DNA of 64,000 nt from Jonquetella anthropi DSM 22815. GTDB taxonomy: Bacteria; Synergistota; Synergistia; Synergistales; Dethiosulfovibrionaceae. Below the pieces are notes generated by a model. That model saw nothing but the letters and a program-made list of their open reading frames with translations. It made no database searches and was not told where the DNA came from. This document shows, piece after piece, positions 23,652 to 43,966 of this stretch. The stretch is taken from contig NZ_CM001376.1 in assembly GCF_000237805.1 (NCBI RefSeq), forward strand, positions 853,010 to 917,009, in the 5' to 3' direction. The translations under genes were made by a program, and so were the position numbers. Positions within the stretch are counted from its first letter, which is position 1. Every line of letters starts with the position of its first letter.

Positions 23652-24671
23652 TCAAGATACTATTGAGCGGTAAAACGAGCTGACGTCGTCGGTCATCTGC
23701 TCCACCGTGCGAAATGACTTTTCGCTGAAAAGCGATATTTTGCCGGCTCCTTTAAAATAGTCCTCAAGAGCTTGGCGCCAAGCCTCGCAGTTTCCGGCCG
23801 GCACGAGATACCCTTCCGGCCGGCTCAGCTCGCGAAACGCCGGGATATCCGATGCAAGAATCGGCGTCCCCAGTCGAGCTGCCAAGGCAACTGACAGGCC
23901 CATGCCCTCTGAAAGGGATGGCGCGACGAGCAGATCACAGAGGGACAGCAGCCGTTCAGTATCGTTCCGAAACCCTAAAAAAGACACCCGGCCGTCGAGG
24001 TTTAGCCGCCGAACGAGGTCTTTCAGGGCGCTTGACTGAGGGCCTTCGCCAGCCACATCAAGCTTCCAGTCGTATTGGCTGAGTCCGGCCAGGCCCTCCA
24101 GAAGCGTTTCAAGGCCCTTGAGCTTGGTCAGCCGGCCGAGAAAAAGCAAATTCCTTCGACGATCCCGGTTTTTCCACTCCCAAGAACCGGAGACGTCAAT
24201 GCCATTGTAAATGACAGCGACTCGTTTCGGGAGACGTCCTTCCATCCAGCTGGCCATAGCCTGAGAAACGCAAATGGCACCGCCAGCTCGCCGGTAAGGC
24301 CACAGACCGGCGTTTTTGCTGTACGCCGCGTGAACCGTAGCAACCCACGGGAGGCCGCTCATCTTTGAGGCGAAATAGGCGACCCACGCGGGAACGCGGG
24401 AATGGGCGTGAAAGAGCTGCCAGCCAGCCGTCTTGGCCTGCTTGGCAAGAGACGCGGCGCACCGTAGCCCGACGGCGATGTTTTTCCGGTGAATCGGCAG
24501 ATGAATCGCGCTGATTTCGGGCCGAAGGCGCCGTTCCAACCGGCCGCCGTTGGAGCAAACGGCCACGCTCATTCCGTCCTGAACCTGCCGGTTGGCCAAA
24601 GCCACGACGTGGTCTTCAACGCCGCCGGATTCAAGTTCAGGCAGCAGGTGAACTACGCTGAGGGGAGCCAT
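23652..24671 (-). CDS. Family 4-type glycosyltransferase
   Basis: A roughly 339-residue GT-B fold glycosyltransferase. The acceptor domain opens VVHLLPELESGGVEDHV. The donor domain has LLFLGRLTKLKGLETLLEGL, VAGEGPQ and the retaining-enzyme EX7E-like region PSLSEGMGLSVALAARLGTP. It probably adds a sugar to the lipooligosaccharide core. The ATG at 24671 or a TTG at 24686 could be the start; both overlap the ELM1-like gene end. Confidence 0.85.
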   Translation of the reverse strand: MAPLSVVHLLPELESGGVEDHVVALANRQVQDGMSVAVCSNGGRLERRLRPEISAIHLPIHRKNIAVGLRCAASLAKQAKTAGWQLFHAHSRVPAWVAYFASKMSGLPWVATVHAAYSKNAGLWPYRRAGGAICVSQAMASWMEGRLPKRVAVIYNGIDVSGSWEWKNRDRRRNLLFLGRLTKLKGLETLLEGLAGLSQYDWKLDVAGEGPQSSALKDLVRRLNLDGRVSFLGFRNDTERLLSLCDLLVAPSLSEGMGLSVALAARLGTPILASDIPAFRELSRPEGYLVPAGNCEAWRQALEDYFKGAGKISLFSEKSFRTVEQMTDDVSSFYRSIVS

Positions 24672-25810
24672 CGGGAAAGCACCCAAGCGGCGGCCTTTTT
24701 TGCCTCGTTAAAATCGACGCCCCCAGCCGGCCGAAGCGACTCATCTGCCAGTGTTTGGCCGCAGATTTCCTCCGGGTAAAGGACCCGAAGGAACCCCTGC
24801 GCCGCAAAATCGTCGATCATCCGACGAAAGCGGGGCGCACCCCAGAGCTTCTCTGTCGGGTAAAGACCGATACAGCTGAGCATCTCGGCAAACCGTTGGA
24901 GAACGCTTCCAGGGCCGTGACGGTGCTCGACCGGCACGACTGCCAACGGGACGCCGGCGGTCACGCATTCCGAAATCATCGACACCGAGTCCTCGGTGCA
25001 GAACATCTTGTCGCAGAAGCCGAGCATCCCCGGCACAGGGTTACGCTCGTCGGCTGACGCCAAAAGAAGCATTCTCACCCGCGGTTCTGCTTCGCACTGG
25101 TCCTTAATCGCCGACTCTGCCAGCTCGGAAGTGCGGCGCGACGTGGTCACGTAAAGGTCAACGTCGGCGCGGCGGGCTGCATCAAACAGCTGAGGGAAAA
25201 ACTTTTCAGCCCACCGGGGTGTGACCTGATAATTTCTGTCGTCGCCGCCGACAAGAACTCCCCACGCGCGCTGACGGCTCAATGGAGAGGACAGCAGCAG
25301 CGTTTGGGCCTGCTTGACCAAATCTTCCTTATTGATGAGATTTGGCGCGCCAAGGGTGACAAACACGTTATCACCCCGGGCCGAGTCGTGACGCGGGACG
25401 ATTGCCATGTCAAAAGGTTCGGTTCCCAATGCAGACGGGGTCATGACGACGCAGCTTTTGCCGGCAAGGGCCTTGGAAAGCGCCAAGCAATAGGGCGCGG
25501 CGCCGCTGCCGGCGGATAGAAAAAGCGGCGGCGTCTCGCTTTCAGCGGTAACGGTTCGGACTTGCTCCAGCAGCCCGCTTCCTTGGGCCTCCCGAAGCCA
25601 GTTCTCTGCTTCTTTCTGTGTTGCCTTCGGGAGAACTCTGCTGGCGACCTTGAGGCAGGAAAAACGCTGTTTCCCGGACAAGGTCGGAACGGGGAGCTCG
25701 CGGGCGTCAATCTGCCCATGAAGCGCACCGATCGCCAAGGCAATGCCTCGGGTCTGGGACAAATGCCCGCGGACGCCGTCACTCAGGACAAATAAATTCG
25801 GCCCGGTCAT
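24653..25810 (-). CDS. ELM1/DUF1022-like protein, probable glycosyltransferase
   Basis: A 385-residue protein resembling the ELM1/DUF1022 family (PF06258). The N-terminus LFVLSDGVRGHLSQTRGIAL matches the family opening. The middle VLVGGDDRNYQ and the later TEDSVSMISECVTAGVPLAVVP look like the GT-B donor-binding half. Bacterial members often lie in LPS gene clusters, and function is not firmly known. The ATG overlaps the larC stop by 4 bases, so it is coupled to larC. An envelope sugar-transfer role is inferred from neighbours. Confidence 0.72.
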   Translation of the reverse strand: MTGPNLFVLSDGVRGHLSQTRGIALAIGALHGQIDARELPVPTLSGKQRFSCLKVASRVLPKATQKEAENWLREAQGSGLLEQVRTVTAESETPPLFLSAGSGAAPYCLALSKALAGKSCVVMTPSALGTEPFDMAIVPRHDSARGDNVFVTLGAPNLINKEDLVKQAQTLLLSSPLSRQRAWGVLVGGDDRNYQVTPRWAEKFFPQLFDAARRADVDLYVTTSRRTSELAESAIKDQCEAEPRVRMLLLASADERNPVPGMLGFCDKMFCTEDSVSMISECVTAGVPLAVVPVEHRHGPGSVLQRFAEMLSCIGLYPTEKLWGAPRFRRMIDDFAAQGFLRVLYPEEICGQTLADESLRPAGGVDFNEAKKAAAWVLSRWLPSA

Positions 25811-29190: not shown

Positions 29191-30426
29191 TCATCTCCAT
29201 TGCCCCTTGAGTTCGGTCATCTGTCGGTCTATTTCCTGCCAGCTTCTTCTGGCAGAGCCTAGTTTCCCATCAAAAAAAACACGAGCGCTTTCTGCAATTT
29301 TATCCCGTAAGTTCTCGTTCAGGGCGCCGATAAAAAACTCCGCTATGCTGGACGCGTCGGAGACGAGACGGCAAACGCCGAGCCGAAGCAGCTCTTCCGT
29401 TGGCTCCCGGAAATCCGAATAGGAGGGACCAAGGCAAAACGGGCATCCCCAAACAGCAGGCTCGTAAACATTCTGACCGCCGCGGGGAACGAGTGTTCCG
29501 CCAACAAACGCCGCCTGCGCCGTCCCGTACAGGCAAAAGAGCTTCCCAATTCTGTCGACGATCATGACGTCCCAGCCTAAAGTGGGAGCTGAGAAGCGAC
29601 AGACAGCGCCGCAGCCAGAAAACAACTCTGCCACGCTTTCGGCCCGCTCCGGGTGCCGTGGCGCGATTATTAAGCGGGCCCCCGGACAGCGCTTTTTCAC
29701 TTCCAGCCACGCTTCATGAATGATTTCGTCCTCGCCGGGATGAGTGCTTCCAGCCAAAATGATCGGCCGGTCCGGCTCGTCAAAGACTGGCAGCTTTTCC
29801 TGTTGCCGGCGGATCAGCAGGGCGTCAGTCTTGTTCTCCCCTGTCACGATGACCCGTTCCGGATGAGAACAAATGGCTTTGAATCGCTCTGCGTCCTCCG
29901 AATCTCGGGCCATAATCACCCGATACCGGTCCAGCACAGATCCCCAAAAAAATTTCAACCGGCGGTAAGAATGAAAACTTCGGTCGGAGATCCGGCCGTT
30001 CACGAGAAAGGCAGGAATCCCCGCCCGGTACAGCCGATCCGTCATGACAGGCCAAAGTTCCGTTTCCATGGTGACATAACACCGGGGCCGCAATTCACCC
30101 AGAGCGCGGGACACGATAGACGGAGCGTCCCAAGGATAATAGGCGTGAACGACGTTCGGCATGAGCTGGCGAACCATCGCCGCTCCGGTTTGGGTAACCG
30201 TCGTTACCAAGACCGGCAACTCAGGAGCCTCTTCAGTGATGCAGGTCACCAGAGGCAAGGCGGACTGAACTTCGCCTACTGAAACCGCGTGAACCCACAC
30301 AGCGCCGCGGGGCACCCGGGACGAATACCAGCCGTGGCGCTCATCCAGACCTTCGGTGTACTTTCGGTCAATCAGCCGGGCACAGCCAGAGAAAACCAGC
30401 TCGGAAAGCGCGCCGTAGAGCCACAT
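29191..30426 (-). CDS. waaA: Kdo transferase
   Basis: A 411-residue GT-B fold inner-membrane enzyme that transfers Kdo from CMP-Kdo to the lipid IVA precursor. The N-terminal hydrophobic anchor is followed by the catalytic glutamate in LDERHGWY. WVHAVSVGEVQSALPL, METELWP and GGTLVPRGGQNVYEPAVWG are characteristic. Length is normal. It lies one base after kdsD in the operon. How many Kdo residues it adds cannot be told from sequence. Confidence 0.95.
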   Translation of the reverse strand: MWLYGALSELVFSGCARLIDRKYTEGLDERHGWYSSRVPRGAVWVHAVSVGEVQSALPLVTCITEEAPELPVLVTTVTQTGAAMVRQLMPNVVHAYYPWDAPSIVSRALGELRPRCYVTMETELWPVMTDRLYRAGIPAFLVNGRISDRSFHSYRRLKFFWGSVLDRYRVIMARDSEDAERFKAICSHPERVIVTGENKTDALLIRRQQEKLPVFDEPDRPIILAGSTHPGEDEIIHEAWLEVKKRCPGARLIIAPRHPERAESVAELFSGCGAVCRFSAPTLGWDVMIVDRIGKLFCLYGTAQAAFVGGTLVPRGGQNVYEPAVWGCPFCLGPSYSDFREPTEELLRLGVCRLVSDASSIAEFFIGALNENLRDKIAESARVFFDGKLGSARRSWQEIDRQMTELKGQWR

Positions 30427-30427
30427 G

Positions 30428-31450
30428 TCACGCGACTCCGCTCTGGAGCAGTTCGTGCAGGTGAATGATCCCCACAGGGAACTCGCCGCGGGTCACGATG
30501 AGCACAGAAACTTCCTTCTGCTCCATCAGCCGCACGGCCTGAACCGCCAGCTGGTCGCCGCTGATCGTCAGGGGGGAATGGGTCATGACCTGCGACACGG
30601 GCAAGTTTAGCGCTTCAATGCCTGACTTTGTCAGCAGGCGTCGCAGGTCGCCGTCGGTAAAAATTCCAAGCAGGCGGCCTTGGTCATCGACGACGATCGT
30701 CGCGCCGTAGCCCTTGCTGGTCATTTCAAAAATCGACGACTGAACGGTAGTTTCTGCCCGCACTAGAGGAAGGCGGTCGCCTGTTCCCATCACGTCACAG
30801 ACCCGAAGCAGCAGCTGCTTGCCTAGGCTGCCCGCCGGGTGAAAGAGAGCGAAGTCCTCCCGCTTCAGATCTCTCAGCACTGTGACCATGCTGCTCAGCG
30901 CGTCGCCGATCGCCAGCTGAAGCGTCGTGCTGCTGGTGGGGGCCAAGTTGAGCGGGTCGGCTTCCCGAAGCACCGACGCGTCTAAAACAAGATCGCTGGC
31001 GGCAGCCAAAGGAGACGAAAGATCTCCAGTGATCGCGATCACCGGTGCGCCAAGGCGCTTGAAAAACGGCGCCAGCGAGACGACCTCAGCAGTTTTCCCG
31101 CTGTGGCTGATGAGCAGGGCCGCGTCCTCCTGACGCACCATGCCCAAGTCGCCGTGGGCGGCCTCAGCAGCGTGGACGAAAAACGACGGCGTGCCAAGCG
31201 ACGCCAGAGTAGCTGATATCTTGCGCCCGACGTGACCAGACTTGCCCATGCCGGAAACGACCAGCCTTCCCCGACAGCCGGCAACCAGACGGGCCGCCTT
31301 GCACAAGGACTCTCCCATTCGGTCAGCCGCCCGAATCAATTCGCTGGCCTCTTCGCGCAGGACCGACGTCCCAACCTGAAGCAACTTGGCGTCGTCAATC
31401 TGAACCGGCGTCCTGTCCGCCGGCAGGGTCACGTGGGTCATTTCTGGCAC
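30428..31450 (-). CDS. kdsD: Arabinose-5-phosphate isomerase
   Basis: A 340-residue enzyme converting ribulose 5-phosphate to arabinose 5-phosphate, the precursor of Kdo. An N-terminal SIS domain ([33 protein letters not shown]) is followed by a CBS pair (about 215-340). Two starts are possible: GTG at 31450 with GGAG 8 bases upstream, and ATG at 31441 overlapping the kdsA stop as ATGA. It is coupled to kdsA either way. Confidence 0.95.
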
Positions 31451-32289
31451 CAGTCCAACTCCACCGGCCCAAGGTCGGACCGAACGAGCCGATCGATTGT
31501 AGCAATATCAGTCAAGAACCTTTCCGCCATGGAAAGTGGGACCATGTTCGGCCCGTCGCTGAACGCCTCTTCCGGCTTCGGGTGAACTTCCATGAACAGG
31601 CCGTCGACTCCGATCGCCACGGCGGCCCGAGCGAGCGGCAGAGTAAAACGCCGGTCGCCGCCCGAACTGTCCCCCTGTCCGCTGGGCATCTGGACGCAGT
31701 GAGTCGCGTCGAAAACTACTGGACGGCCAAGCGAGCGCATGATTGGAAGCGACCGCATGTCCACGACGAGCTGGTGATACCCCATCGAGGTTCCCCGCTC
31801 GCAGACCATCACGTTGTCGTTCCCGGCTTCGTGAAGTTTCGTAATGACTGACTTCATATCGCCTGGCGCGAGAAACTGGGCTTTCTTCACGTTCACAGGC
31901 CGACCAGTCTTAGCCGCAGCAACCAAAAGGTCGGTCTGCCGACAGAGAAACGCCGGAATTTGAAGGACGTCGACCACCTGAGCCACAGGCTCTGCCTGCC
32001 AGCTCTCGTGAATATCGGTCAAAACGGGGACGTCCAACTCTCCCTTGATGGTCCCGAGCCATTCCAGCCCTTGGTCAATTCCCGGGCCGCGCTTGCTGTG
32101 AATAGAAGTTCGGTTCGCCTTGTCGAACGACGCCTTGAATATGTAGTTGAGCCCCAGCCGGGAGCAGATCTCCTTCAGAGCCCCGCCGACTTGTAGCCCC
32201 AGTTCCAAGGATTCCAGCGCACAAGGGCCGGCAATAACCGCCAACGGAGAACCGTCACCTATCGAAAAATTACTGATTTTCACCGACAT
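31438..32289 (-). CDS. kdsA: Kdo-8-phosphate synthase
   Basis: A 283-residue TIM-barrel synthase joining PEP and arabinose 5-phosphate. The N-terminal motif is AGPCALES: the Cys at this position marks the metal-dependent class, while E. coli has Asn. [21 protein letters not shown] and [10 protein letters not shown] are intact. It overlaps the end of the lpxK fusion gene by 20 bases. A GAGAGGAG ribosome binding site precedes the ATG. Confidence 0.96.
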
Positions 32290-34540
32290 CCTTAGACGTC
32301 TCCTCTCGTTTCTCTTGCAGGCTCCGCCAGACCTGGCACCGGCGCTCCCAGCCTAGGTGCTCAGCCGCCCAGTTCACCAGGTCATCGGCCATTCCGGACG
32401 AACCGAGGCGACTCCGTCCGATCTGAGCCATTTTCTCCATAGACTGCGGGTCGTCCAACAGCCCAAGAACCACATCTGACAGAGCGACCGGGCTTTTAGG
32501 GACAAGGATTTCAGATCCGGCGAGAAGTTTTTTCTGAACTCGTTTACCCTTTTCGTCCACCGAGACGACGGGAATGCCGAGTCCCGCGCAGATTTGATTG
32601 GCCGTTCCAGCCAGTCCCAAAAGGACTTCTGCCCCGCGGGCTGCCTGAGAGACCTCGCCGGAAAAGACCTTCACCGTCAGGCCGTTCTTTCTCAGCGACG
32701 GCACCGATCCCGTTTCGTCAAAATGCCACCCTGAGGCAGCGCGCACAAGACGTTGGGTTGAGATAGTCGAGGCGACCACGAGCACAGCTGACACGGGGGC
32801 CTTCCGCGCTACGAGTTCCAGCGCGTCAAGCAGCAAGGGAAGATCCCTGTATGCCCTGTCCCGACTGCCTGGAAGCACCAAAATCCTTCGACCATTTTCC
32901 CACAAACTGGGCATGCTTGGTACCTGTTCCGCCAAATCCATGATCGGGTTTCCGGCAAACCGCACGGAGCCGCCGTTTTCCGCCAGCTCCTGACGAGTCG
33001 CGTCGTCCCTCGTCCAGATCATGCGGGTGTTCCGCCTGTACAGCCACCGCTCAATTTTCATATGTCCGCTGATGTGAACCGTCTTCGCCGTCGCGACGAA
33101 CAGGGGCGATCGCCCCTGTCCCCACAGGGCGTGCAACAGCATATACGAGTCGCCGACGCAGACAGGCGTCCGCAGAGCATACCGAAGCTTTCGCCAACAG
33201 GATATCTGCGCCCTGATGTGCCCGAAAAGTCCGGCTCGAATATCCCCGATCAGATCCCGGAAGCGGTACTTCACCACGCCGCCTGACGGGGTGACTGCCG
33301 GCGGCGGAACCACTGAGATCCCAGCCGCCCGGTACGAACTGCCCATCCCAACAACCGGGAAGGCGACGACCTGGGCGTCAGGGAGCCGGGCTTTCAGCTT
33401 TTTTGCCACCACCGCCCCGATGGCGTCCTCGCCGTGCCCATTTGAGGCCACGACAAGTTGAGGCTTCAGGCAGTCGGTCAGGTAAGACCAGAACCGATCC
33501 TCGTCTTCCAAGGCTGTTTCAACCTGGGGCACCCAAAGGGGAAGGGGCGGTTTCCACCCGGATGGAAGGTTGTACGTGTCTTTTTCCGTGCAGGTCAGAC
33601 CGCATGCCCCAGCCCGAAGGGCATTGGCGGCAATCCGGTTCAGGTCACTGGGCGTAAAGCGGTGGTGGTCCTTAAACTGAGCGGACGAAATAACCCGAAC
33701 GCCAGCCTGCTGAAGAGTCATCAAAAAGCTGTGCGGGTTGCCGATCGCAGAAAAAGCTGCCAGCTTCTTGTCTTTCGGATAAAAGTCGCTTGGCGCGAGA
33801 CGGCCCGATTCAAAATTTCCCCACTGGGCAATGCGAAGTCGGGAGCGAAAAACGCGGCTCAACGGAACGTATTGGGCGAGCTTTCGCTCTATCTCCATGA
33901 GCTGGCCGTCCGTCACCTGATCAACCTTAGACAGCACAATCAGATGGGCCCGGCTTATCGCCGAGATCTTTTCCCGCAAAATGCCACCAGGAAGAAGCTG
34001 TCCGTTGCCAAACGGACAGGTGGCATCGACGAGGACGATGTCGCAGTCTCGGTCGAGCCGACGGTGCTGAAAACAGTCGTCGGCGACGGCAACGTCACAG
34101 CCGCACCGGGCCAGATATTCTGTCCCGACAAAGCGGTCAGGCGAGACGGCCACGACCACTTCTTTCAGCTTATTGGAGAGCAGCAGCGGTTCATCGCCGA
34201 CTGCCGAACGTTTTGCCCTTCCGTTTCGGAAGACGAGCGGCGTTCTGCTCACCCCACCGTAACCGCGGCTTACCACACCGCAGACGAGCCCCTGACGGAC
34301 CATGTGCTTGGCCAGATACTCAACGAATGGCGTCTTGTTCGTCCCGCCGGTGGTCAAGTTTCCCACGCTGATAACCGGAAGCGGCGCCTCCATGGACCGT
34401 TTGACGCCGTGACGGTACATCCAGTCACGCGCGGATGACAATTTGCCGGTAAGCCAGCTGAGCGGACGGAGGAGGGCCCACGCCGAGCCGGGAACCTCCC
34501 CTCGGGCGTACTGAAGGTAAGACTGCAGCAGCCGGCTCAT
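32270..34540 (-). CDS. lpxK: Fusion: lipid A 4'-kinase (LpxK) plus LpxB-related glycosyltransferase
   Basis: A 756-residue two-domain protein. Residues 1 to about 350 form LpxK, which phosphorylates the 4' position of the lipid A disaccharide: [13 protein letters not shown] (Walker A with Asn where Gly is usual), [18 protein letters not shown] and CTEKD. From about 357 a second domain starts with [13 protein letters not shown]. It has [13 protein letters not shown] and [20 protein letters not shown], matching the lipid-A-disaccharide-synthase-related group. LpxK alone is usually about 320-350 residues. The gene overlaps msbA by 4 bases and kdsA by 20 bases. I see no frameshift: the fusion is in one continuous frame. 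Confidence 0.92.
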
Positions 34541-36273
34541 CGGTTGTGGCCGTACTGGAGCGCGAAAAGTTTTTGATAGCCGCCGTTCAGGGCGATCAGC
34601 TGGTCGTGGGTTCCTGACTCGATGATGCGCCCATCAGAGAGGAACACGATCCGATCGGCCGAACGAATGGTCGACAGCCGATGGGCGATAATGAAGCTGG
34701 TACGCCCTCTCATGGCCGCTTCCATTGCCTCTTGAATGCGAAGCTCCACCGCTGCGTCCAAGGACGATGTGGCTTCGTCGAGTATAAGAATCCGCGGATC
34801 CCGAATGACCGCCCGAGCGATGGCGACCCGCTGGCGCTGGCCGCCGCTGAGCGTCACGCCCCGCGGGCCAACCGGCGAGTCATACCCGTCCGGCAGCGAC
34901 TCGATGAACGCGTCAATACCTGCCATGCGGGCCGCCGTCTTGACTTCCTCGTCGGTTCCATCATAGCCGTAGGTGATGTTGCTTCTGATCGTGCCTTTCA
35001 TCAAAATCGGGTCCTGCGGGACGACGCCGATCTGACGGCGCAGGCAGTCGAGTTTAAGCGTCCTCACGTCCCGGCCGTCAATCAGCACCTGGCCGCTCTG
35101 GGGATCGTAAAAGCGTTGGACAAGGTCAACCAGCGTCGACTTGCCTGCGCCGGTAGAGCCGACAATCGCCAGCTTTTCGCCGGGACGAACGTGAAGGTCC
35201 AACCCGCGGAGAACAGGCTGTTCTTCCACGTAGGAGAACCAGACGTTTTCAAAGTCCACTTTGCCGGTCACCCGCCCCGGATCCACAGCGTCAGGCGGCG
35301 AGACGATCCGATCGTCGTTGTCCAAAAGCTCGAAAATCCTTTCGGCCGCGGCGACGCCGAACTGGAGCTGACTTACCGCGCGGGTAAACGCGTTAATTGG
35401 ACTGGCCAAGAATCCCATAGTTCCTAAAAACGCGACCAGCTCGCCGGGCGACATTCGACCCGCAATGACCGCTTTCCCGCCGATCCAAAGGATTACGGAC
35501 AGCGCCAAGATAAGGAAAACCTCAACGCAGCCAGTCAAGAGGGCGTTCAGCCGAACCCCCTTCATGACGACTTTGAAGTTCTCTTCGTTTGCCTCTTCAA
35601 ACCTGTCGAGTTCCTGCGGCTCAGTGGCAAAAGCCCGGACAATGCGAATCGCACCGAGAACTTCTTCTGCGACGGCTGTCAGCCCGGCAACGTGCTCTTG
35701 GGTCTTGCGGCCAACCCGGCGAAGCCGCTTGGACGTCTTGTCGAGCACAACCACGACAAAAGGCAGAATGACCACCGTGTAGGCCATCAGTCGCCAGTTC
35801 AGGTAGAACAGGTACCCGATCATACCGACGCAGCTCAGCCCATGGACGACTAAATCGACCAACACGCCGCTGACGGTCGTTTGCAGGACGTTGGCGTCGT
35901 TGGTGACTCGCGAGAGGAGTTCTCCAACGTTGCGGGCGTTGATATACCGAAATGAGAGCGTCTGAAGGTGAGCATATGAGTCCTGCCGCAGGTTGAGAAC
36001 GACCCGCTGGCCCACCCAGTTCATCAGGTACTTCTGCCAGTAAGCGCAGATGTTTTTTAAAATAAAAAAAGCCACAATCGCGGCGGCAATGTAATTGAGA
36101 AGATCTCCCCGATGGCTGATCAGCACGTCGTCGACCGTGTTCTTCATCAGCCAAGGCGGAACGACCGCGCAGAACGCGACGCCAGCCATGCAGAGCACAG
36201 CCAGCGCGAGCCGCCGCCAGTACGGTGCGACGAGACGAAGCATTCTTCGAGACGTGGAATTTTTAGCGATCAT
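34537..36273 (-). CDS. msbA: Lipid A flippase, ABC transporter MsbA type
   Basis: A 578-residue half-transporter: six-helix membrane domain (about 1-320) fused to an ATPase. Walker A is GSTGAGKSTLVD, the signature LSGGQRQRVAIARA and Walker B ILILDEATSSLD. A role in flipping core-lipid A is inferred from its place between lpx genes; other exporters of this family look similar. It overlaps both neighbours (11 and 4 bases). Confidence 0.92.
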   Translation of the reverse strand: MIAKNSTSRRMLRLVAPYWRRLALAVLCMAGVAFCAVVPPWLMKNTVDDVLISHRGDLLNYIAAAIVAFFILKNICAYWQKYLMNWVGQRVVLNLRQDSYAHLQTLSFRYINARNVGELLSRVTNDANVLQTTVSGVLVDLVVHGLSCVGMIGYLFYLNWRLMAYTVVILPFVVVVLDKTSKRLRRVGRKTQEHVAGLTAVAEEVLGAIRIVRAFATEPQELDRFEEANEENFKVVMKGVRLNALLTGCVEVFLILALSVILWIGGKAVIAGRMSPGELVAFLGTMGFLASPINAFTRAVSQLQFGVAAAERIFELLDNDDRIVSPPDAVDPGRVTGKVDFENVWFSYVEEQPVLRGLDLHVRPGEKLAIVGSTGAGKSTLVDLVQRFYDPQSGQVLIDGRDVRTLKLDCLRRQIGVVPQDPILMKGTIRSNITYGYDGTDEEVKTAARMAGIDAFIESLPDGYDSPVGPRGVTLSGGQRQRVAIARAVIRDPRILILDEATSSLDAAVELRIQEAMEAAMRGRTSFIIAHRLSTIRSADRIVFLSDGRIIESGTHDQLIALNGGYQKLFALQYGHNR

Positions 36274-37348
36274 GGCGAGCGGTCACCTTCTCTTCGAGCA
36301 AATCACAGATACGATCCGGAGCGCCGGGCTTCACAGCCTGAGCGAGCCCCTCCAGCTTCTGACGAAGGGACGTCAGTCGGTCCCGGTCAGATAATAGCGA
36401 CGACAAGGCGTCAGACAAATCGTCGGATGAAAGGTCACCGACCAGCTCGGGGACAATCTCCCGGCCGGTCATTCGATTGGGCCACGCCATTTTTCCCTTC
36501 CGAGCCACGGCCGCGCGCTTAACGTAGAATGACCGCAGGAACTGAGGCGCCAAAATACCCAGCAGCCCCGCTACTGGAATTTTAGCGAGGAACGAAAACG
36601 GAAGCACCGTTAAAAACGGCACTCTCAGGTACATCAGTTCAAGCGTATTCGTTCCCGGCTGAGTGATCGCAAAGTCAGCGCCGCCGGCAACTGACGCAAT
36701 CGTTCCCTCGACCGGGTACAAGCCGGCGCGGTGCCAATTGTCCCACTCGTTATCGGAAGCAAACGGCGAAAGCGGCGTTCTTACTTCAAGATCCGGCCTG
36801 ACCTGACGAAGCTTTTCGCAGGTTTCCTTCAGCAAGCCAAGAGCTTGAGAGCGAATCGACGGCCGACTCCCTGGGACGAGAATCAGCCGAGCTCCCGACG
36901 GTCTTTTCCAAAGGCCGTCCCCGGCTTTCAGGCTGTCCAGCACCAAGTCGCCGACAATCTGCGCTGAGGAAACACTTAAAAGCCCTTCGCGGGGAGCTAA
37001 GACCAAATCGCAATGGCCGAGGCCTTTTTTCATCCCGTAGGTGTAGCACGCCAAGACGGCTCGGTTGGCCTGGGCCAACCGACGGCCGAACATCAGGTCG
37101 CCGCCCAGCTGAAGGACCGCGTCAAAACCGGCGTTTTCCCCAAACGCGAACCAGGCGTGCAGCGCAGAACCGTAGCGGGTCACAGGGACTCCGAGAGACT
37201 GCAGGGCCGCTTCCTCCCGGCCGGAAGCGAACGGACAGGGAAGCAGAAAAATGGACGCATTCCACCCCCGAGCCCGCGCGGCACTGAGAACAGGCCGCGC
37301 CCACCCCCACACCTCGCCGGGCCCGTTGGAGAGGATCGCCAGCCTCAC
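36263..37348 (-). CDS. LpxB-like glycosyltransferase paralogue
   Basis: A 361-residue protein related to lipid-A-disaccharide synthase but distinct from the neighbouring LpxB. It opens LAILSNGPGEVWGWARPV, has LILVPGSRPSIRS in the middle and QPGTNTLELMYLRVPF where LpxB has its GT-B donor-binding segment. A hydrophobic patch (about 270-290) may touch the membrane. The GTG at 37348 is chosen: it overlaps the lpxB stop as GTGA and has GGAG 8 bases upstream. The longer frame to 37387 lacks these signs. Acceptor and donor are unknown. Confidence 0.8.
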   Translation of the reverse strand: MRLAILSNGPGEVWGWARPVLSAARARGWNASIFLLPCPFASGREEAALQSLGVPVTRYGSALHAWFAFGENAGFDAVLQLGGDLMFGRRLAQANRAVLACYTYGMKKGLGHCDLVLAPREGLLSVSSAQIVGDLVLDSLKAGDGLWKRPSGARLILVPGSRPSIRSQALGLLKETCEKLRQVRPDLEVRTPLSPFASDNEWDNWHRAGLYPVEGTIASVAGGADFAITQPGTNTLELMYLRVPFLTVLPFSFLAKIPVAGLLGILAPQFLRSFYVKRAAVARKGKMAWPNRMTGREIVPELVGDLSSDDLSDALSSLLSDRDRLTSLRQKLEGLAQAVKPGAPDRICDLLEEKVTARHDR

Positions 37349-38466
37349 TGCCGATGCTCCATCAGTTCCAAAACGCGGCGGGCCCACCGGGCGAAGACTC
37401 CTGGGGTGCCCATCCTCCGCCGGTTGGCCGCGAGGGTTCGATGAACCTTCGACCGGAAGTCAGAACTGGAAACGTACCGCCGAATCGCCTTCCAAATCAG
37501 ATCTTCCCGACATTTATCTTGGATCAGTTCGGGGTATACCTGCCAGCCGGCTAGCACGTTAGGAACTGACACAAAGGGCGTGAGCCGAAGCAGGTTAAAC
37601 ACCGACCACTCAAACAGACTTCCCCGGTACAGGACGACCATGAACCGGTCTAAAAGCATCGCTTCGACGGCCACAGTTCCACTGGCCGCGACGACAAACC
37701 GAGACCGGGCCATCAGCTCTCGTCCTGGACCTTCAAAAACCGGCAGCCCTGCCTTGTTGGACCGAATCAGCTGGGCCCCTTCGGCGCGCAGCCCTGACGC
37801 CAGAGAGAGCACTGGCCGAAACCCGCTCTTTCTCAGCCGAATTCCGACCCGTTCCAAAATCGGCAGCAGGGAGCGAACTTCACGAAGTCGGCTTCCAGGC
37901 ATTAAGGCGACGGTTTTCTCGTCCTCATTCGGCGCTCCGACGTTCCAACGGCTGACATCGTCAATCAGCGGGTACCCTTCCCACACCGCCGGCACGCCGA
38001 GAGTTTTCAGCACCCGAGCTTCAAAGTCGAACAGCGGAAGGCACAGGGTACAGTACTTCTTCAACGCTTTTGCTCGGCCCCGGCGCCAGGCCCACACTGT
38101 AGGCGGGCATAGGTCGACGATCGGTCCGTCAAAGCCGGCGCGGCGGAGGCGGCGAGCAAGCGGAACGTGGAAGTCCGGGCTGTCCACCAACACGACAGCG
38201 TCCGGCCGACGCCGAATCACCTGTTCGACAATCTGACTGCTCAGCCGAAAAATCCGCGGGATCCCGCGTAAAACACTTGAAAGGCCCATGATCTGCAGGC
38301 TCTCGTTGCTCCAATACCGCTCAAGGCCGGCAGCTAACGAACCGCCCATTCCCCAGATCGGCTGGTCGTACCCGGCGCGGCGCAGCTCAGAAATCAATCC
38401 GGCGGCGTACAGGTCCCCGGAGACTTCTCCAGTGCTCACGAAAATTGACACGCCGACACCCCCCAC
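37345..38466 (-). CDS. lpxB: Lipid-A-disaccharide synthase
   Basis: A 373-residue GT-B enzyme that condenses lipid X with UDP-diacylglucosamine. Diagnostic parts are FVSTGEVSGDLYAAGLI, VLVDSPDFHVPLARRL, PPTVWAWRRGRAK, MPGSRLREV, and ASGTVAVEAMLLDRFMVVLY near the donor site. This is the canonical copy among the three LpxB-type domains here. The start may be GTG at 38466 or GTG at 38451; both lie within the end of lpxI. Confidence 0.94.
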   Translation of the reverse strand: MGGVGVSIFVSTGEVSGDLYAAGLISELRRAGYDQPIWGMGGSLAAGLERYWSNESLQIMGLSSVLRGIPRIFRLSSQIVEQVIRRRPDAVVLVDSPDFHVPLARRLRRAGFDGPIVDLCPPTVWAWRRGRAKALKKYCTLCLPLFDFEARVLKTLGVPAVWEGYPLIDDVSRWNVGAPNEDEKTVALMPGSRLREVRSLLPILERVGIRLRKSGFRPVLSLASGLRAEGAQLIRSNKAGLPVFEGPGRELMARSRFVVAASGTVAVEAMLLDRFMVVLYRGSLFEWSVFNLLRLTPFVSVPNVLAGWQVYPELIQDKCREDLIWKAIRRYVSSSDFRSKVHRTLAANRRRMGTPGVFARWARRVLELMEHRQ

Positions 38467-39254
38467 ACAGCAATCCCCAGCTTATCAGCTTCAGAGACAA
38501 ACGACTCGTCAAGCAGCAAGACGCTGCCGGCCTGAAGGAATAGGGCGGTCAGCCCGGCGTCGGCCATTTTATGCAGCGTGCGAAGCCCAACAACAGGCAA
38601 GTCATACCGTCGGTCCTGATCTCTTCTCATGCCCTTGACGAGGACGCCCCGGCCGGCCAGCGCGCCTGCTCGCTCGATCATGCCGTCGGTGCCCTCCATC
38701 GCTTCAACGGCGATGACGCTTTTGTCCGCCACCACGAGGGACTGACCGAACGACAGCGGCAAAATCTTCTCCAAGACGGACCAGCCGTACTGAGCGTCTG
38801 CCATCTCGTTTTCGCTGGGGCGCCCGGAAGAGACTTGTCCTTCTGAAACCACCATTTCCGGCACGACGTCCTCATACGGGACGACGCGGATTCCAAACCG
38901 TTCAATAGTTCTGACCACAGCCCCAAGCAGGCTGTGGTCATTTCTTTCGCTCGCTTCTGCCAACGTCGACCGCGACGTCTCGTCCATGTTCTTTCGGTCG
39001 TACATCAGCTTCTTGGGCACCCGCCCGGCAAGGATCAGCCGCCGAACGCCGGCAAGACGCATGGACGTCAGGATCACCCCAAAGGCCAGCGGATTTTTCA
39101 CCGACTTAAACGCGCAGCCCAGATCGGTCCAAGGAGCGGAATCGTCGGACAGCAAAAAGACGGCCGGGTCAGTTTCACCCCGCCGACGAAGTCCCTGAAG
39201 AATTGCCAAAGGCAGCCGTCCTTCACCGGCCACAAGAGCCAGTTTGCCGCTCAT
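38436..39254 (-). CDS. lpxI: UDP-2,3-diacylglucosamine pyrophosphatase, LpxI type
   Basis: A 272-residue LpxI (former DUF1009), which makes lipid X by hydrolysing UDP-diacylglucosamine. It is the alternative to LpxH. Family marks are LVAGEGRLPLAILQG at the N-terminus, SVIAVEAMEGTDGMIERAG, and KGMRRDQDRRYDLPVVG. The ATG overlaps the upstream permease gene stop by 4 bases, and the downstream end overlaps lpxB. The LpxI-LpxB order matches the sequence of the reactions. Confidence 0.94.
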   Translation of the reverse strand: MSGKLALVAGEGRLPLAILQGLRRRGETDPAVFLLSDDSAPWTDLGCAFKSVKNPLAFGVILTSMRLAGVRRLILAGRVPKKLMYDRKNMDETSRSTLAEASERNDHSLLGAVVRTIERFGIRVVPYEDVVPEMVVSEGQVSSGRPSENEMADAQYGWSVLEKILPLSFGQSLVVADKSVIAVEAMEGTDGMIERAGALAGRGVLVKGMRRDQDRRYDLPVVGLRTLHKMADAGLTALFLQAGSVLLLDESFVSEADKLGIAVWGVSACQFS

Positions 39255-40339
39255 CGATCAGCCCTTCGGATCAGAAAGACGGCAGCGACTAAGAAAATGA
39301 TATTCGGCAGCCAACCGGCGACCACCGGAGGGAGAGCGTTGGCCTGGCCAAGCGATTTTCCGACCGACATCAGGACGTAGTACAGAAACACGATTAAAAT
39401 GCTCTGCCCGAAACCAACGCTTCGGTTGCCGTGCCGTTGGTGGCTGACGCCGAGCGACGTCCCGATCAGCGAGAGAATGACACACGCCCATGGGACGGCC
39501 AGTTTGAAATGGAACTTGACCCACAGGGCGGAAATATCTTTGCCCTGCATTTTCATCGCCGCAATATACCGATACAGGTCAGAGACGCTCAGGTCGTCGG
39601 GCTTGACCGACGTGTTAGCAATCTGACGCGGGGTTAAAGAAATCGGCAGCTCCTGCTTGGCAAAGTGAAACAAGTGTGCGACGCCGTCGGGTTCCTTCAT
39701 CTCGTAGACGTCCCCGTCAGTCAGATACCAGATTCCGCTCACCCACTGACCGTTCGGCGCCACCGTGATTCGGGTCAATTTGCCGCTCGCCAGCTCCTGC
39801 ACGATGACGTTGGACATACTGCCGCTGGACGGATCCAGCTTGCCCACATACACGACCCGGCCGCCGGGAGCCTGAAGGAAGACCTCCTGTTTAATTAAAA
39901 CAGGCTTCTGCTTGGCCACCTCAAAGGTCATCACGTTTTCAGCTGCCCGCTGACCTAAAGGCACAAGGGTCTCGTTCAGTATCAGAGAGAGGATAGAGAT
40001 GATAACCGCCCAGAAAATCACCGGCCAGTTCATTCGCCAAAACGATATCCCTGACGCCTTCAAAGCGACGACTTCGCTGTTCGTCGACATCGCGCCGAAG
40101 CCCAAAAGGGCCCCCAGCAGGCACGACATCGGCAGAGTGAGCACGACCACGCCGGGCAGCTCGTACACAAAGAGCCGACCTGCCACGGCGAGAGAAACTC
40201 CTCGTTCGATGATCAGGTCGGCGAGTTTGAACAACAGACCGCCTGCCACCATGATGAGAGAAAAAGCCATCACGCCGAACAGGAACGGCCCAGCAAGTTC
40301 TTTTGAAATATATCGGTCAAGCGTGCGGCAACATTTCAT
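39251..40339 (-). CDS. LPS export permease, LptF/LptG family (YjgP/YjgQ)
   Basis: A 362-residue inner-membrane permease of the Lpt machine that lifts LPS from the inner membrane. It starts LDRYISKELAGPFLFG, has three N-terminal membrane helices, a periplasmic beta-jellyroll (about 135-260) and three C-terminal helices. The ATG at 40339 is chosen because GGAG lies 7 bases upstream; 53 in-frame residues further up are kdsC shadow. Only one such gene is seen, so the partner subunit and LptA, B, C must be elsewhere. LptF versus LptG cannot be decided by eye. Confidence 0.9.
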   Translation of the reverse strand: MKCCRTLDRYISKELAGPFLFGVMAFSLIMVAGGLLFKLADLIIERGVSLAVAGRLFVYELPGVVVLTLPMSCLLGALLGFGAMSTNSEVVALKASGISFWRMNWPVIFWAVIISILSLILNETLVPLGQRAAENVMTFEVAKQKPVLIKQEVFLQAPGGRVVYVGKLDPSSGSMSNVIVQELASGKLTRITVAPNGQWVSGIWYLTDGDVYEMKEPDGVAHLFHFAKQELPISLTPRQIANTSVKPDDLSVSDLYRYIAAMKMQGKDISALWVKFHFKLAVPWACVILSLIGTSLGVSHQRHGNRSVGFGQSILIVFLYYVLMSVGKSLGQANALPPVVAGWLPNIIFLVAAVFLIRRADR

Positions 40340-40814
40340 TCTGCAACTCCGCGGCATTACGCCGAAGCAATTCGTCCGTAACTTCTCGGACAGCCCCGAA
40401 ACCTCCTCCGCTTTGGGTAATCCAGTCGGCAGCCTCTTTCGCAGCTGAGACAGCGTCAGCCACTGCAGCGCCGAACCCAGCCCAGCGAATGCAGGCACAG
40501 TCGTTCAGATCGTCGCCGACGTAGGCCGTCTCGCTCTGAGAAACTCCAAGTTCCCGACAGAGCTCCTGAAGAGCGGGCAGTTTTTCGCCCTTACCGTTCA
40601 TCACGACTTTCATACCCAGCTCTTTCGCGCGAGCCAAAGTAGCGTCGGACTGGCGGGCGCTGATCAGCGCCACCGTGCCGCCGCTTCCTTTAAACATCGC
40701 AATGCCTAAGCCGTCGCGAACGTGAAAACGCTTAAACTCGTGACCGGCCCCGTCGATGAACACGCCTCCGTCGGTCAGAGTGCCGTCGACGTCAAGCGCC
40801 AGTAACCTGAACAC
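40317..40814 (-). CDS. kdsC: Kdo-8-phosphate phosphatase
   Basis: A 165-residue HAD phosphatase without cap domain that dephosphorylates Kdo 8-phosphate. Motif I is LALDVDGTLTDGG, the second motif is in LISAR, and VGDDLNDCACI carries the acidic motif. The GTG at 40814 is chosen because it follows the lpxA stop by 4 bases and gives the usual N-terminus. A longer frame to 40928 lies inside lpxA. The end overlaps the lptF/G gene by 23 bases. Confidence 0.93.
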   Translation of the reverse strand: MFRLLALDVDGTLTDGGVFIDGAGHEFKRFHVRDGLGIAMFKGSGGTVALISARQSDATLARAKELGMKVVMNGKGEKLPALQELCRELGVSQSETAYVGDDLNDCACIRWAGFGAAVADAVSAAKEAADWITQSGGGFGAVREVTDELLRRNAAELQNEMLPHA

Positions 40815-40818
40815 CAGC

Positions 40819-41631
40819 CTACCGATCCTGTTCGTGACCGCGGCTTTTTGGCCAAGTGCAGACGCCGCGGCCCCGGTTCGAGCTTCGGAAGAACTCGATG
40901 ATCCGCAGGACGTCCTTGTCAGTAGCATTCTTAGCCAGCTCTTCCACAGCCTGACGAATCGGAAGTCCGCTGTGGTAAATGCGCTGATATGCGTGCCGAA
41001 GCAGCAGCCGTTTTTCCTGCGAGAACCCGTTGCGCTTTAATCCGACCACGTTCAGGCCATAGACCCGGGACGGGTGGCCGTCCACCAGCGTAAAGGGAGG
41101 GATGTCTTGGACGTTTTTCGACGCACCGCCGACCATGCAGTATTCGCCGATGCGCAGGAACTGATGAAAGCCGGCTAAACCGCCGATGACCGTATGCTCG
41201 CCCACCTCAACATATCCGGCCAAGCCAGACTTGCTTGAAATGATCACGTTGTTGCCGATGGAAACGTTGTGTCCTACGTGAACGCTGTCCATCAGCAGAC
41301 AGTCGCTGCCGACAGTCGTCCGCTGTCCCGCCCCGGTACCGCGGTGAATCGTTACGTGTTCCCGAATAATCGTTCGGTCGCCGATGCAGACGTAGCTTTC
41401 CTCGCCCTTAAAACCCATATCCTGCGGTTCGGCGCCGATGATCGCGCTTTCATAGATGACGCATTTTTTCCCAACAGTAACATACTGGCAAAGACGAACC
41501 ATCGGCCTGATGACCGTGCCGTCGCCGATGGTCACGTGATCTCCAATCATGCAGAAAGGACCAATTTCGACTCCCTCACCCAATATCGCGTTGGGAGAAA
41601 CGATTGCCGTCGGGTGAATATGAACTGTCAT
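40819..41631 (-). CDS. lpxA: UDP-N-acetylglucosamine acyltransferase
   Basis: A 270-residue left-handed beta-helix acyltransferase, first enzyme of lipid A synthesis. Hexapeptide repeats run through the first two thirds. The catalytic histidine lies in MDSVHVGHNVSIG. The C-terminal helical domain with NVVGLKRNGFS is present. It overlaps fabZ by 4 bases. The last 15 residues are basic and look like a short added tail. Confidence 0.96.
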   Translation of the reverse strand: MTVHIHPTAIVSPNAILGEGVEIGPFCMIGDHVTIGDGTVIRPMVRLCQYVTVGKKCVIYESAIIGAEPQDMGFKGEESYVCIGDRTIIREHVTIHRGTGAGQRTTVGSDCLLMDSVHVGHNVSIGNNVIISSKSGLAGYVEVGEHTVIGGLAGFHQFLRIGEYCMVGGASKNVQDIPPFTLVDGHPSRVYGLNVVGLKRNGFSQEKRLLLRHAYQRIYHSGLPIRQAVEELAKNATDKDVLRIIEFFRSSNRGRGVCTWPKSRGHEQDR

Positions 41632-42092
41632 TTTTCTCCCTCCTTCCGGAGGTCATCCTCCGAACTTTTAGGTAAAAGAGCGAAACTGAGGATTGCCTCG
41701 GCGACCATTTGATCGTCAACCTTCGCTGTCGCGCTGACCTTGCCCATTCGGCCGAGCGTTCTGATCATCTGAACCTCCATGACCAGTTGATCGCCCGGAA
41801 CGACCATCTTCCGAAACTTGGCCTTATCAACGCCGGTCAAAAAGGAAACCGCCCCTTCGAGACCGAATCCTTTAGCGAGCATCACGCCCGCAGTCTGAGC
41901 CAAAGCCTCCAAAATCAAGACGCCAGGCATCACGGACTTTTGGGGGAAATGCCCTTGAAAAAACGGCTCGTTGAACGTGACGTTTTTGATTGCCTTCGCT
42001 GATTTTGCCGGCTCAAGCTCTAAAACTCGATCGACTAGAAGGAACGGGTACCGGTGAGGCAAAATGCTTTTCAGATCTTCCGCGTCGTACAT
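41628..42092 (-). CDS. fabZ: 3-hydroxyacyl-ACP dehydratase
   Basis: A 154-residue hot-dog-fold dehydratase of fatty acid synthesis. The motifs ILPHRYPFLLVDRV, FFQGHFPQKSVMPGVL (catalytic His) and EALAQTAGV are intact. It competes with LpxA and LpxD for hydroxyacyl-ACP, and its place between lpxC and lpxA is a classic arrangement. It overlaps lpxA by 4 bases. Confidence 0.96.
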   Translation of the reverse strand: MYDAEDLKSILPHRYPFLLVDRVLELEPAKSAKAIKNVTFNEPFFQGHFPQKSVMPGVLILEALAQTAGVMLAKGFGLEGAVSFLTGVDKAKFRKMVVPGDQLVMEVQMIRTLGRMGKVSATAKVDDQMVAEAILSFALLPKSSEDDLRKEGEK

Positions 42093-42116: not shown

Positions 42117-42944
42117 TTAGCATTTTTCAGCGCATCGACCGAGCCTGTCAACCAGCTTCAGGTGCATCGCGTGTCCGGCCCGTATACCAATAAAGTGTCC
42201 CTTCAAGGGACGCCCAATTAACGTTAAATCCCCCACAAAATCGAACATCTTATGGCGAACGTACTCATCCGAACAGCGGAGCTCGTTGCCGCCCAGAGGC
42301 CCTTCACTTCCGACAACCAAGGCCGTGTCAACCGTCCCGCCGAGCCCAAGGCCGGCCGCTCGCATTGCCTCAACTTCCGCCTCCAGACAGAACGTCCGGC
42401 ACTGGGCGAGCTCCCTGATGAACGTCTCCGGGGCAACGGTGACCGTTGCCGTCTGTGTCCCGATCGGAGTGCCGGAGTAGTCAATCGTATAAGTAATACG
42501 GAAGGCGTCATCCGGCAGCGCCGCAGTAACCTTTCGACCGTCTGGCGACTGCACGGCAACAGGCGCGGCAACACAGAAAAAGTCTCGATCGCCCGACTGC
42601 TCAGCAAAGCCGTTTTGGGCCAGCCCTTGGCAGTACTCCAGTCCGCCGCCGTCCAACAGAGGCGCCTCAATCCCATCTGGGCAGATTATGACGTCGTCAA
42701 CACCCAACCCGCGCAGCGACGCCAACATGTGCTCCACTGTCATCAGCCTGTGCGAGCCAAACGACAGGACGGTCCCGCGGCCGTCCCCGCTCCGCTGGGC
42801 ATGGGAAATTTGGAACGCCTCGCTGCCAAACCTGACCTGATACCCGGTCCCTGAAGGAGCCGGAAGGAGCTGAACAGAAGTGCGCTCGCCCGAGTGAAGT
42901 CCTACGCCGTCGAAGCGAATCGGATTTTTCAGCGTCAGCCGCAT
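42117..42944 (-). CDS. lpxC: UDP-3-O-acyl-N-acetylglucosamine deacetylase
   Basis: A 275-residue zinc deacetylase catalysing the committed step of lipid A synthesis. It starts TLKNPIRFDGVGLHSG. Zinc ligands are visible as His in LMTVEHMLASL and His/Asp in VRHKMFDFVGDL. The general acid-base histidine is in AGHAMHLKLV. Length is slightly below the E. coli protein. Its ATG overlaps the lpxD stop by one base (TGATG). Confidence 0.96.
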   Translation of the reverse strand: MRLTLKNPIRFDGVGLHSGERTSVQLLPAPSGTGYQVRFGSEAFQISHAQRSGDGRGTVLSFGSHRLMTVEHMLASLRGLGVDDVIICPDGIEAPLLDGGGLEYCQGLAQNGFAEQSGDRDFFCVAAPVAVQSPDGRKVTAALPDDAFRITYTIDYSGTPIGTQTATVTVAPETFIRELAQCRTFCLEAEVEAMRAAGLGLGGTVDTALVVGSEGPLGGNELRCSDEYVRHKMFDFVGDLTLIGRPLKGHFIGIRAGHAMHLKLVDRLGRCAEKC

Positions 42945-43966
42945 CAGTCGGCCTGCTTCGAGGACTCTAGCCGCTTCAGCCGGTCGAACAGCTCAGGCAG
43001 CCGCCGAATCAGAGCTAGGGTCTTGAAGTCCTCCCTGTGGTCTCTGGCGGGAAAGCCTGACACAACGGCGCCAGCGGGAACGTCCTTCGTCACGCCGGAA
43101 AGCGCGGCGACAACTGCCCCGCGGCCGACCCGCCGGTGGTCCTGAATCCCGCTCCTGACGGCGAGAATCGCGCCGTCTTCGATTACCACGCTGCCAGACA
43201 GGCCGGACTGGCTGGTGATAATGCAGTTGCGGCCGATTTGGGCGTTGTGGCCGATCTGAACTTGGTTGTCGATCTTTGTGTCGTCACCGACCGTCGTGTC
43301 GCCAATTGTGCCCCGATCGATCGTCACGCAGGCGCCAATCGACACCCGGTCGCCAACCTTCACCGCGCCGATTTGAGGTATCTTCACAGGGCTCGAATCC
43401 GGCCCGCCGGGAATAAACCCAAAACCGTCGCTTCCGATCACAGTACCGGCATCGACATAACAGTCTCTACCAACGGAACATCTCCGGTGAATGGTCACCC
43501 CTGGTTCAAGGACTGTTCCCTCGCCGACCTGAACATCCTCACCGACGTAGACCCGAGCCGTCAGCCTGACGTTGGGGCCGATTTTTGCTCCCCGGGAGAC
43601 GACGCAGAACGGGCCGACGAACGCAGAAGCGTCTACTAACGCGCCGGGGGAAACGCTGGCCGCAGGCGAAACACCGGGGCATACAGGCGTGCGGGGCTCG
43701 AAAAGGGCTAGGACTCGGGCCATCGACTGGCGAAACGACTTAACGATAACGCCGTCATAGCCGGCAGGGAACTTACCTTCCTCAGCTAAGACAGGGACTT
43801 CTGAGGGGACAGACTTGGCCAATTCTGGCGAGTCCACGAAGCTCAGCCGGTCGGCGTCAAAGACTCCTGCCGGAGAAACGCCGGAGACACTCCGCCGGCC
43901 GTTTCCAGAAACCTTTCCGCCTACAGCCTCAGCAAGTTCTGCCAGACTCAGGGTCTGTTTTCCCAT
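42944..43966 (-). CDS. lpxD: UDP-3-O-acylglucosamine N-acyltransferase
   Basis: A 340-residue trimeric acyltransferase, third step of lipid A synthesis. It has an N-terminal uridine-binding domain (about 1-95), hexapeptide beta-helix repeats, the catalytic histidine in VQIGHNAQIG and a C-terminal helix with LPELFDRLKRLE. It follows bamA after 31 bases. The usual skp/ompH gene between bamA and lpxD is absent here. Confidence 0.96.
   Translation of the reverse strand: MGKQTLSLAELAEAVGGKVSGNGRRSVSGVSPAGVFDADRLSFVDSPELAKSVPSEVPVLAEEGKFPAGYDGVIVKSFRQSMARVLALFEPRTPVCPGVSPAASVSPGALVDASAFVGPFCVVSRGAKIGPNVRLTARVYVGEDVQVGEGTVLEPGVTIHRRCSVGRDCYVDAGTVIGSDGFGFIPGGPDSSPVKIPQIGAVKVGDRVSIGACVTIDRGTIGDTTVGDDTKIDNQVQIGHNAQIGRNCIITSQSGLSGSVVIEDGAILAVRSGIQDHRRVGRGAVVAALSGVTKDVPAGAVVSGFPARDHREDFKTLALIRRLPELFDRLKRLESSKQAD

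Follow-up and report, generated by a model that had tools for sequence, protein, structure and literature searches.

The described proteins closest to the two Jonquetella anthropi DSM 22815 genes discussed here are LpxB, the lipid A disaccharide synthase (PF02684, TIGR00215), labelled GT19, LpxK, the tetraacyldisaccharide 4'-kinase, and the members of TIGR03492, an NCBIfam family of unknown function named lipid-A-disaccharide synthase-related protein. The genes lie in a window of 64,000 nucleotides (contig NZ_CM001376.1, positions 853,010 to 917,009; host genome 1.68 Mb) which carries a 3-deoxy-D-manno-octulosonic acid (Kdo)-lipid A operon on its minus strand. One of them, B2, encodes a divergent LpxB paralogue; the other encodes LpxK fused to a domain, T, which is closest to TIGR03492. 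Since relatives of B2 and T are found beside lipid genes in other phyla and B2 stands in the usual place of LpxB in Deinococcota, the two probably modify lipid A, or a molecule resembling it, with sugar in a way not yet described. An LpxB-related gene of an lpx cluster is likewise known from Dictyoglomus, where the cluster ends with Dtur_0824; comparable with B2 and T by description only, it is presented without mention of an LpxK fusion in the portion of the paper cited here (PMC5167688). Out of nine genes, only lpxA, lpxC, lpxD and lpxB were reported for Cyanobacteria and Dictyoglomi, and cyanobacterial lipopolysaccharide (LPS) was described as free of Kdo, heptose and phosphate (PMC3087551, cited in part). 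The original prediction had regarded this locus as the best candidate for an undescribed activity in the window. The T family already has a name in NCBIfam, without a function, and our literature search, which left most subscription journals outside its coverage and contained no query aimed at the LpxK fusion, returned nothing on the function of the B2 or TIGR03492 families or on the fusion.

The three open reading frames of the original prediction (a canonical LpxB, an LpxB-like paralogue and, after msbA, a 756-residue protein with an N-terminal LpxK and a C-terminal LpxB-related half) were all recovered on the minus strand (Table 1). Their assignment to one superfamily was confirmed, although only one of them exceeds the curated Pfam LpxB cut-off. 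This protein, the canonical LpxB, stays under the cut-off of TIGR00215 (177 bits against 190.25). The single-profile matches of B2 were all sub-threshold (Pfam LpxB, 18 bits against 22.6; TIGR00215, 24.8 bits against 190.25; TIGR03492, 18.6 bits), and one Deinococcales B2 reached 33.7 bits with the Pfam LpxB profile. Profile-profile comparison by hhalign related the B2 set to the LpxB set (probability 99.8 over 355 columns), and the T–LpxB and B2–T pairs both gave 99.6. The control values were 0.15 (KdsA), 0.62 (GT4) and 0.84 (ELM1-like) for B2, 0.32 (ELM1-like) and 29.3 (WaaA) for T, and 0.63 for LpxB with WaaA. B2 and WaaA, a KdtA-type transferase, gave 78.8, so that WaaA is no clean negative control for B2. 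From the homology to LpxB, a GT-B fold would be expected for both B2 and T.

LpxB, B2 and T formed three separate clades in both phylogenetic trees, with the window LpxB inside the LpxB clade, B2 outside it, and the T half of the window among TIGR03492 members from other phyla. The UFBoot supports were 100 for LpxB, 99 for B2 and 100 for T in a tree of 90 sequences, a random choice within each group (the window always retained) from the 168 of the FastTree tree; the latter supported LpxB at 0.962, T at 1.0 and B2 weakly, at 0.584. A recent origin of B2 by copying of LpxB was rejected on account of the separate clades, the FastTree support of the B2 clade alone being only 0.584. B2 is homologous to LpxB along its length, lies in the same operon and retains the LpxB motifs GSR, GT...E and PN...E (G, S, R, G, T, E, N and E at 85-100% in 60 B2 rows). 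It differs from LpxB by its separate clade, by scores below the curated cut-offs and by its distribution, beside LpxB in Synergistota and without LpxB in the Deinococcota examined.

The T half aligns to 391 of the 396 TIGR03492 positions (2-392), and most residues conserved in the family are kept. It differs from this family in scoring just below the cut-off of 219.2 (214.2 bits in the protein and 216.3 bits in the genome search), in being fused to LpxK and in having Q instead of E in the GTANx motif. The N-terminal half is a full LpxK above the curated cut-offs, in which the P-loop and other residues are invariant in 22 rows, and the T half is what distinguishes the fusion from LpxK. Among 33 mapped Synergistota stretches, LpxK::T lies in a single frame in all 21 other loci where both halves were readable, which rules out a chance or frameshift fusion. 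Two loci were left out of this count: L082, where the contig ends inside the T domain, and L067, where the frame taken was on the opposite strand although the genome search shows a 796-aa open frame. Over the 21 loci, the mean identity to the window was 44% for the LpxK half and 46% for the T half, i.e. the two are equally conserved. Frames shorter than 600 aa were found, among the main-length TIGR03492 matches listed, only in G005, G010, G051 and G100, the first two at contig ends. In the three mapped genomes of family f11 (L078, L079 and L080), a 624-aa gene stands between msbA and the LpxK fusion, and in L078 and L080 it resembles asparagine synthase, AsnB, by eye.

Both families are conserved across the Synergistota, the phylum of the window; contigs named Synergistales, Synergistaceae or Acetomicrobium also encode these proteins. 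TIGR03492 matches were obtained in 171 of 185 genomes (above the cut-off in 16) and B2 matches in 176 of 185, including family f8, whose best B2 matches were much weaker (E 5e-25 to 7e-9). The gene msbA directly follows B2 in 14 mapped Synergistota loci; in five f8 loci it directly follows lpxB. Four f8 copies of B2 branch away from the operon copies in the UFBoot tree. An unlinked f8 B2 adjoins a gene which reads by eye as gyrB in L084 and L092. Superfamily membership, this conservation, most of the donor-side motifs and the relatives in lpx operons elsewhere make sugar transfer the best reading of B2 and T. The loss of donor-binding residues, by which the original prediction could have been refuted, was not observed for B2, the motifs of which are kept, and was observed in part for T (E-to-Q in GTANx).

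In Deinococcota, B2 was found in 62 of 111 genomes (E below 1e-40) and T in 80; both occurred in 60, B2 only in two (G279 and G292), T only in 20 and neither in 29 (Fisher p 1.8e-11 for co-occurrence, kinship uncorrected). Within 8 kb and on the same strand, 60 of the 62 B2 genes have lpx genes or msbA, usually in the order lpxD-lpxC-fabZ-lpxA-B2-msbA. As several contigs are short, the counts of lpxA (59), fabZ (58), msbA (51), lpxC (48) and lpxD (46) are to be read accordingly, and so is the absence of lpxB from all 62 neighbourhoods. L402 and L403 showed neither lpx genes nor msbA on the B2 strand, and L405 showed msbA only. Thirty genomes, 11 of them Deinococcota, were searched whole. Of the 30, 25 have LpxC and 19 have a canonical LpxB (over 80 bits), and LpxK, WaaA and LpxI were found in three each (LpxI in one of them weakly); LpxH gave no match above the cut-off and one below. 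No canonical LpxB over 80 bits occurred in the 11 Deinococcota, where the PF02684 matches fall inside B2. LpxC was present in seven of these 11 and B2 in eight, LpxC in seven of those eight; G214 had none of B2, T and LpxC. The idea that B2 and T have nothing to do with lipid A because Deinococcota lack LPS was rejected in view of the seven genomes with LpxC.

The position of B2 between lpxA and msbA in Deinococcota, with no lpxB found at that place, together with the donor-side and PN...E motifs shared with LpxB, might also mean that B2 is simply a second lipid A disaccharide synthase, standing in for LpxB in Deinococcota and acting as an isoenzyme in Synergistota, with no new product. This seems unlikely to us, since canonical LpxB is also kept beside B2 in Synergistota and in the cyanobacteria searched, and the two proteins form separate clades. 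Moreover, neither LpxI nor LpxH was matched in the 11 Deinococcota, which suggests that lipid X, the usual LpxB acceptor, may be missing there; the LpxH model passed its cut-off in just one of the 14 control genomes, and the search did not extend to other pyrophosphatases. Since the B2 relative stands where LpxB would, B2 may build the backbone rather than add an extra sugar. With low confidence we put forward a further reading: B2 would found another class of synthases for the lipid A backbone, beside LpxB, and would make a lipid-A-like glycolipid without LpxB, LpxK and LpxI in Meiothermus-type Deinococcota and, beside LpxB and LpxK-T, lipid A with a further, possibly acylated, sugar in Synergistota. 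The gene between lpxC and fabZ in Meiothermus (L284:7441-8427) is UDP-N-acetylglucosamine 3-dehydrogenase-like (8.3e-56, below cut-off) and may point to a 2,3-diamino sugar. Similar-looking genes occupy the same place in L290 and L294.

According to the part of PMC5007114 cited here, Pfam profile searches for LpxA-D led to the conclusion that the ancestor of Deinococcus/Thermus had an outer membrane with LPS, and the LpxB scored there for Deinococcota would be B2. The question of lipid A in Deinococcota has so far been argued from lpx genes. As the LpxB-like gene of the clusters read is B2, these clusters may make something other than ordinary lipid A. Through the two families, which also occur together in the sampled cyanobacteria, the envelope pathways of Synergistota, Deinococcota and Eremiobacterota are linked, and named genes become available for testing.

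Genome contigs were scanned with a pattern, which yielded at least 116 stretches; among those listed, 111 encode B2 over 60 bits, and one further stretch had a 52-bit B2 fragment at a contig end. The stretches listed came from Cyanobacteria, Eremiobacterota, Armatimonadetes, Deinococcota (Meiothermus, Trueperaceae and Deinococcales), Atribacteria, Marinamargulisbacteria, Sericytochromatia and Synergistota, and from two metagenome-assembled genomes labelled Deltaproteobacteria and Rhizobiales. A scan of viral contigs with B2 gave no confirmed match. TIGR03492 was matched in 19 of 20 B2-carrying genomes (18 above the cut-off; none in the Atribacteria genome), which were picked for having B2 and have no bearing on T without B2. 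Two Eremiobacterota (L304 and L305) have the order lpxD-lpxC-fabZ-lpxA-lpxB, one small frame, then T. In L306, a Margulisbacteria contig, T is the direct neighbour of an msbA-like gene; in L303, an Armatimonadota contig, a single GT2 gene separates T from such a gene; and in L300 two genes stand between T and B2. Five cyanobacterial genomes (G185, G197, G199, G203 and G204) have at least two TIGR03492 genes each above the cut-off.

We propose that B2 and T would be nucleotide-sugar-dependent glycosyltransferases of the LpxB superfamily. Their substrates would be Lpx-pathway lipids, modified at the inner face of the cytoplasmic membrane ahead of export by MsbA. For B2 these would be acylated glucosamine lipids, at the LpxB step or close to it, with UDP-diacylglucosamine or another UDP-hexosamine as the probable donor. 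T would glycosylate the same lipid or its precursor at the stage of phosphorylation by LpxK, and the fusion would couple the two reactions. Catalysis, donors, acceptors, the order of steps and the product are inferred here from sequence comparisons, and for the explanation as a whole we consider the chances to be about even. The simplest view covering the evidence places both, as transferases, in the Lpx lipid branch. The original prediction is supported in part: sugar transfer on lipid A or a related glycolipid is retained as the best reading, and an extra sugar on lipid A would be one possible product, as B2 may build the backbone and two Deinococcota genomes have T but no LpxC.

Several observations weigh against this proposal. 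The B2 of family f8 lies outside the operon in all nine genomes mapped (L084-L092), and in the Deinococcota genome G287 B2 occurs without a match to LpxC. T was not found beside B2 in any of the 62 Deinococcota neighbourhoods, nor beside lpx genes in the Deinococcota and cyanobacterial stretches read, and G205 and G250 have T only, without LpxC. T retains the GSR and GT motifs of LpxB but not PN...E, and in Synergistota its GTANx motif reads GTANQ, with Q649 in 23 of 23 aligned rows, against E in 77 of 79 rows (50 of the 79 unique) of other phyla. This last exchange would fit a T half that serves as a scaffold or regulator of LpxK and is no longer a transferase. We consider that very improbable, as D464, R511, D512, D535 and R560 are present in all 23 Synergistota rows and the T half is as conserved as LpxK.

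The case for a role in the Lpx lipid branch is stronger for B2 than for T, whose link to lipid A genes holds for Synergistota and the two Eremiobacterota but not for Deinococcota. The occurrence of T in Deinococcota without LpxC leaves room for B2 or, above all, T glycosylating a general glycolipid such as a glycosyl-diacylglycerol, the link to lipid A genes then reflecting co-regulation of envelope lipids. T is found without B2 in 20 Deinococcota genomes, the two of these searched having no LpxC, and a GT4 gene directly follows T in three Deinococcota stretches (L282, L285 and L299). A dihexosyl-N-acylhexosaminyl-hexosyl-diacylglycerol is common to Thermus and Meiothermus, and the glycolipids of Meiothermus ruber contain N-acyl-galactosamine with 2-hydroxy, 3-hydroxy or plain acyl chains (PMC3035268, cited in part). 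Such a role nevertheless appears doubtful in view of the LpxK fusion in Synergistota, the T gene in the lpx operon of the two Eremiobacterota and the linkage of nearly all Deinococcota B2 genes to lpx genes or msbA.

The operon of the window reads, in the direction of transcription, bamA, lpxD, lpxC, fabZ, lpxA, kdsC, lptG/F, lpxI, lpxB, B2, msbA, lpxK::T, kdsA, kdsD, waaA and kdsB; waaA and kdsB are separated by a frame that looks peptidase-like by eye. When the longest starts are taken, all neighbouring frames from lpxI to kdsD overlap, by 4 to 31 nt (lpxI/lpxB 31, lpxB/B2 4, B2/msbA 11, msbA/fusion 4 and fusion/kdsA 20). The B2 reading frame stays open up to 37387.

Table 1 Genes and domains of the Kdo-lipid A operon, with window positions and profile scores
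Feature	Position	Strand	Profile evidence
lpxD	42944..43966	-	TIGR01853 287 bits, over cut-off
lpxC	42117..42944	-	TIGR00325 194.5 bits, over cut-off
fabZ	41628..42092	-	TIGR01750 185 bits, over cut-off
lpxA	40819..41631	-	TIGR01852 311 bits, over cut-off
kdsC	40317..40928	-	TIGR01670 129.7 bits, over cut-off
LptG/LptF-type permease	39251..40498	-	TIGR04408 246 bits, over cut-off
lpxI, UDP-diacylglucosamine pyrophosphatase	38436..39254	-	Pfam LpxI_C and LpxI_N
lpxB, lipid A disaccharide synthase	37345..38466	-	Pfam LpxB 2.4e-58, 198 bits; in LpxB clade
B2, divergent LpxB paralogue	36263..37348	-	profile-profile match to LpxB; separate clade
msbA-type ABC exporter	34537..36273	-	TIGR02203 537 bits, under its 602 cut-off
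LpxK::T fusion, 756 aa	32270..34540	-	LpxK and TIGR03492-like domain, one open reading frame
LpxK half of fusion, residues 21-357	33470..34480	-	Pfam LpxK 1.9e-85, 287 bits; TIGR00682 194.6 bits (cut-off 91.95)
T half of fusion, residues 364-725	32366..33451	-	TIGR03492 2.4e-63, 214.2 bits (cut-off 219.2)
kdsA	31438..32289	-	TIGR01362 388 bits, over cut-off
kdsD-type isomerase	30428..31450	-	TIGR00393 302 bits, over cut-off
waaA, Kdo transferase	29191..30426	-	Pfam PF04413 201 bits

Downstream of kdsB, at 23652-25810 on the minus strand, the window encodes an ELM1-like protein (Pfam PF06258, 176 bits) and a GT4 glycosyltransferase, possibly core-sugar transferases. Several further Synergistota operons have relatives of the two at this end as well.

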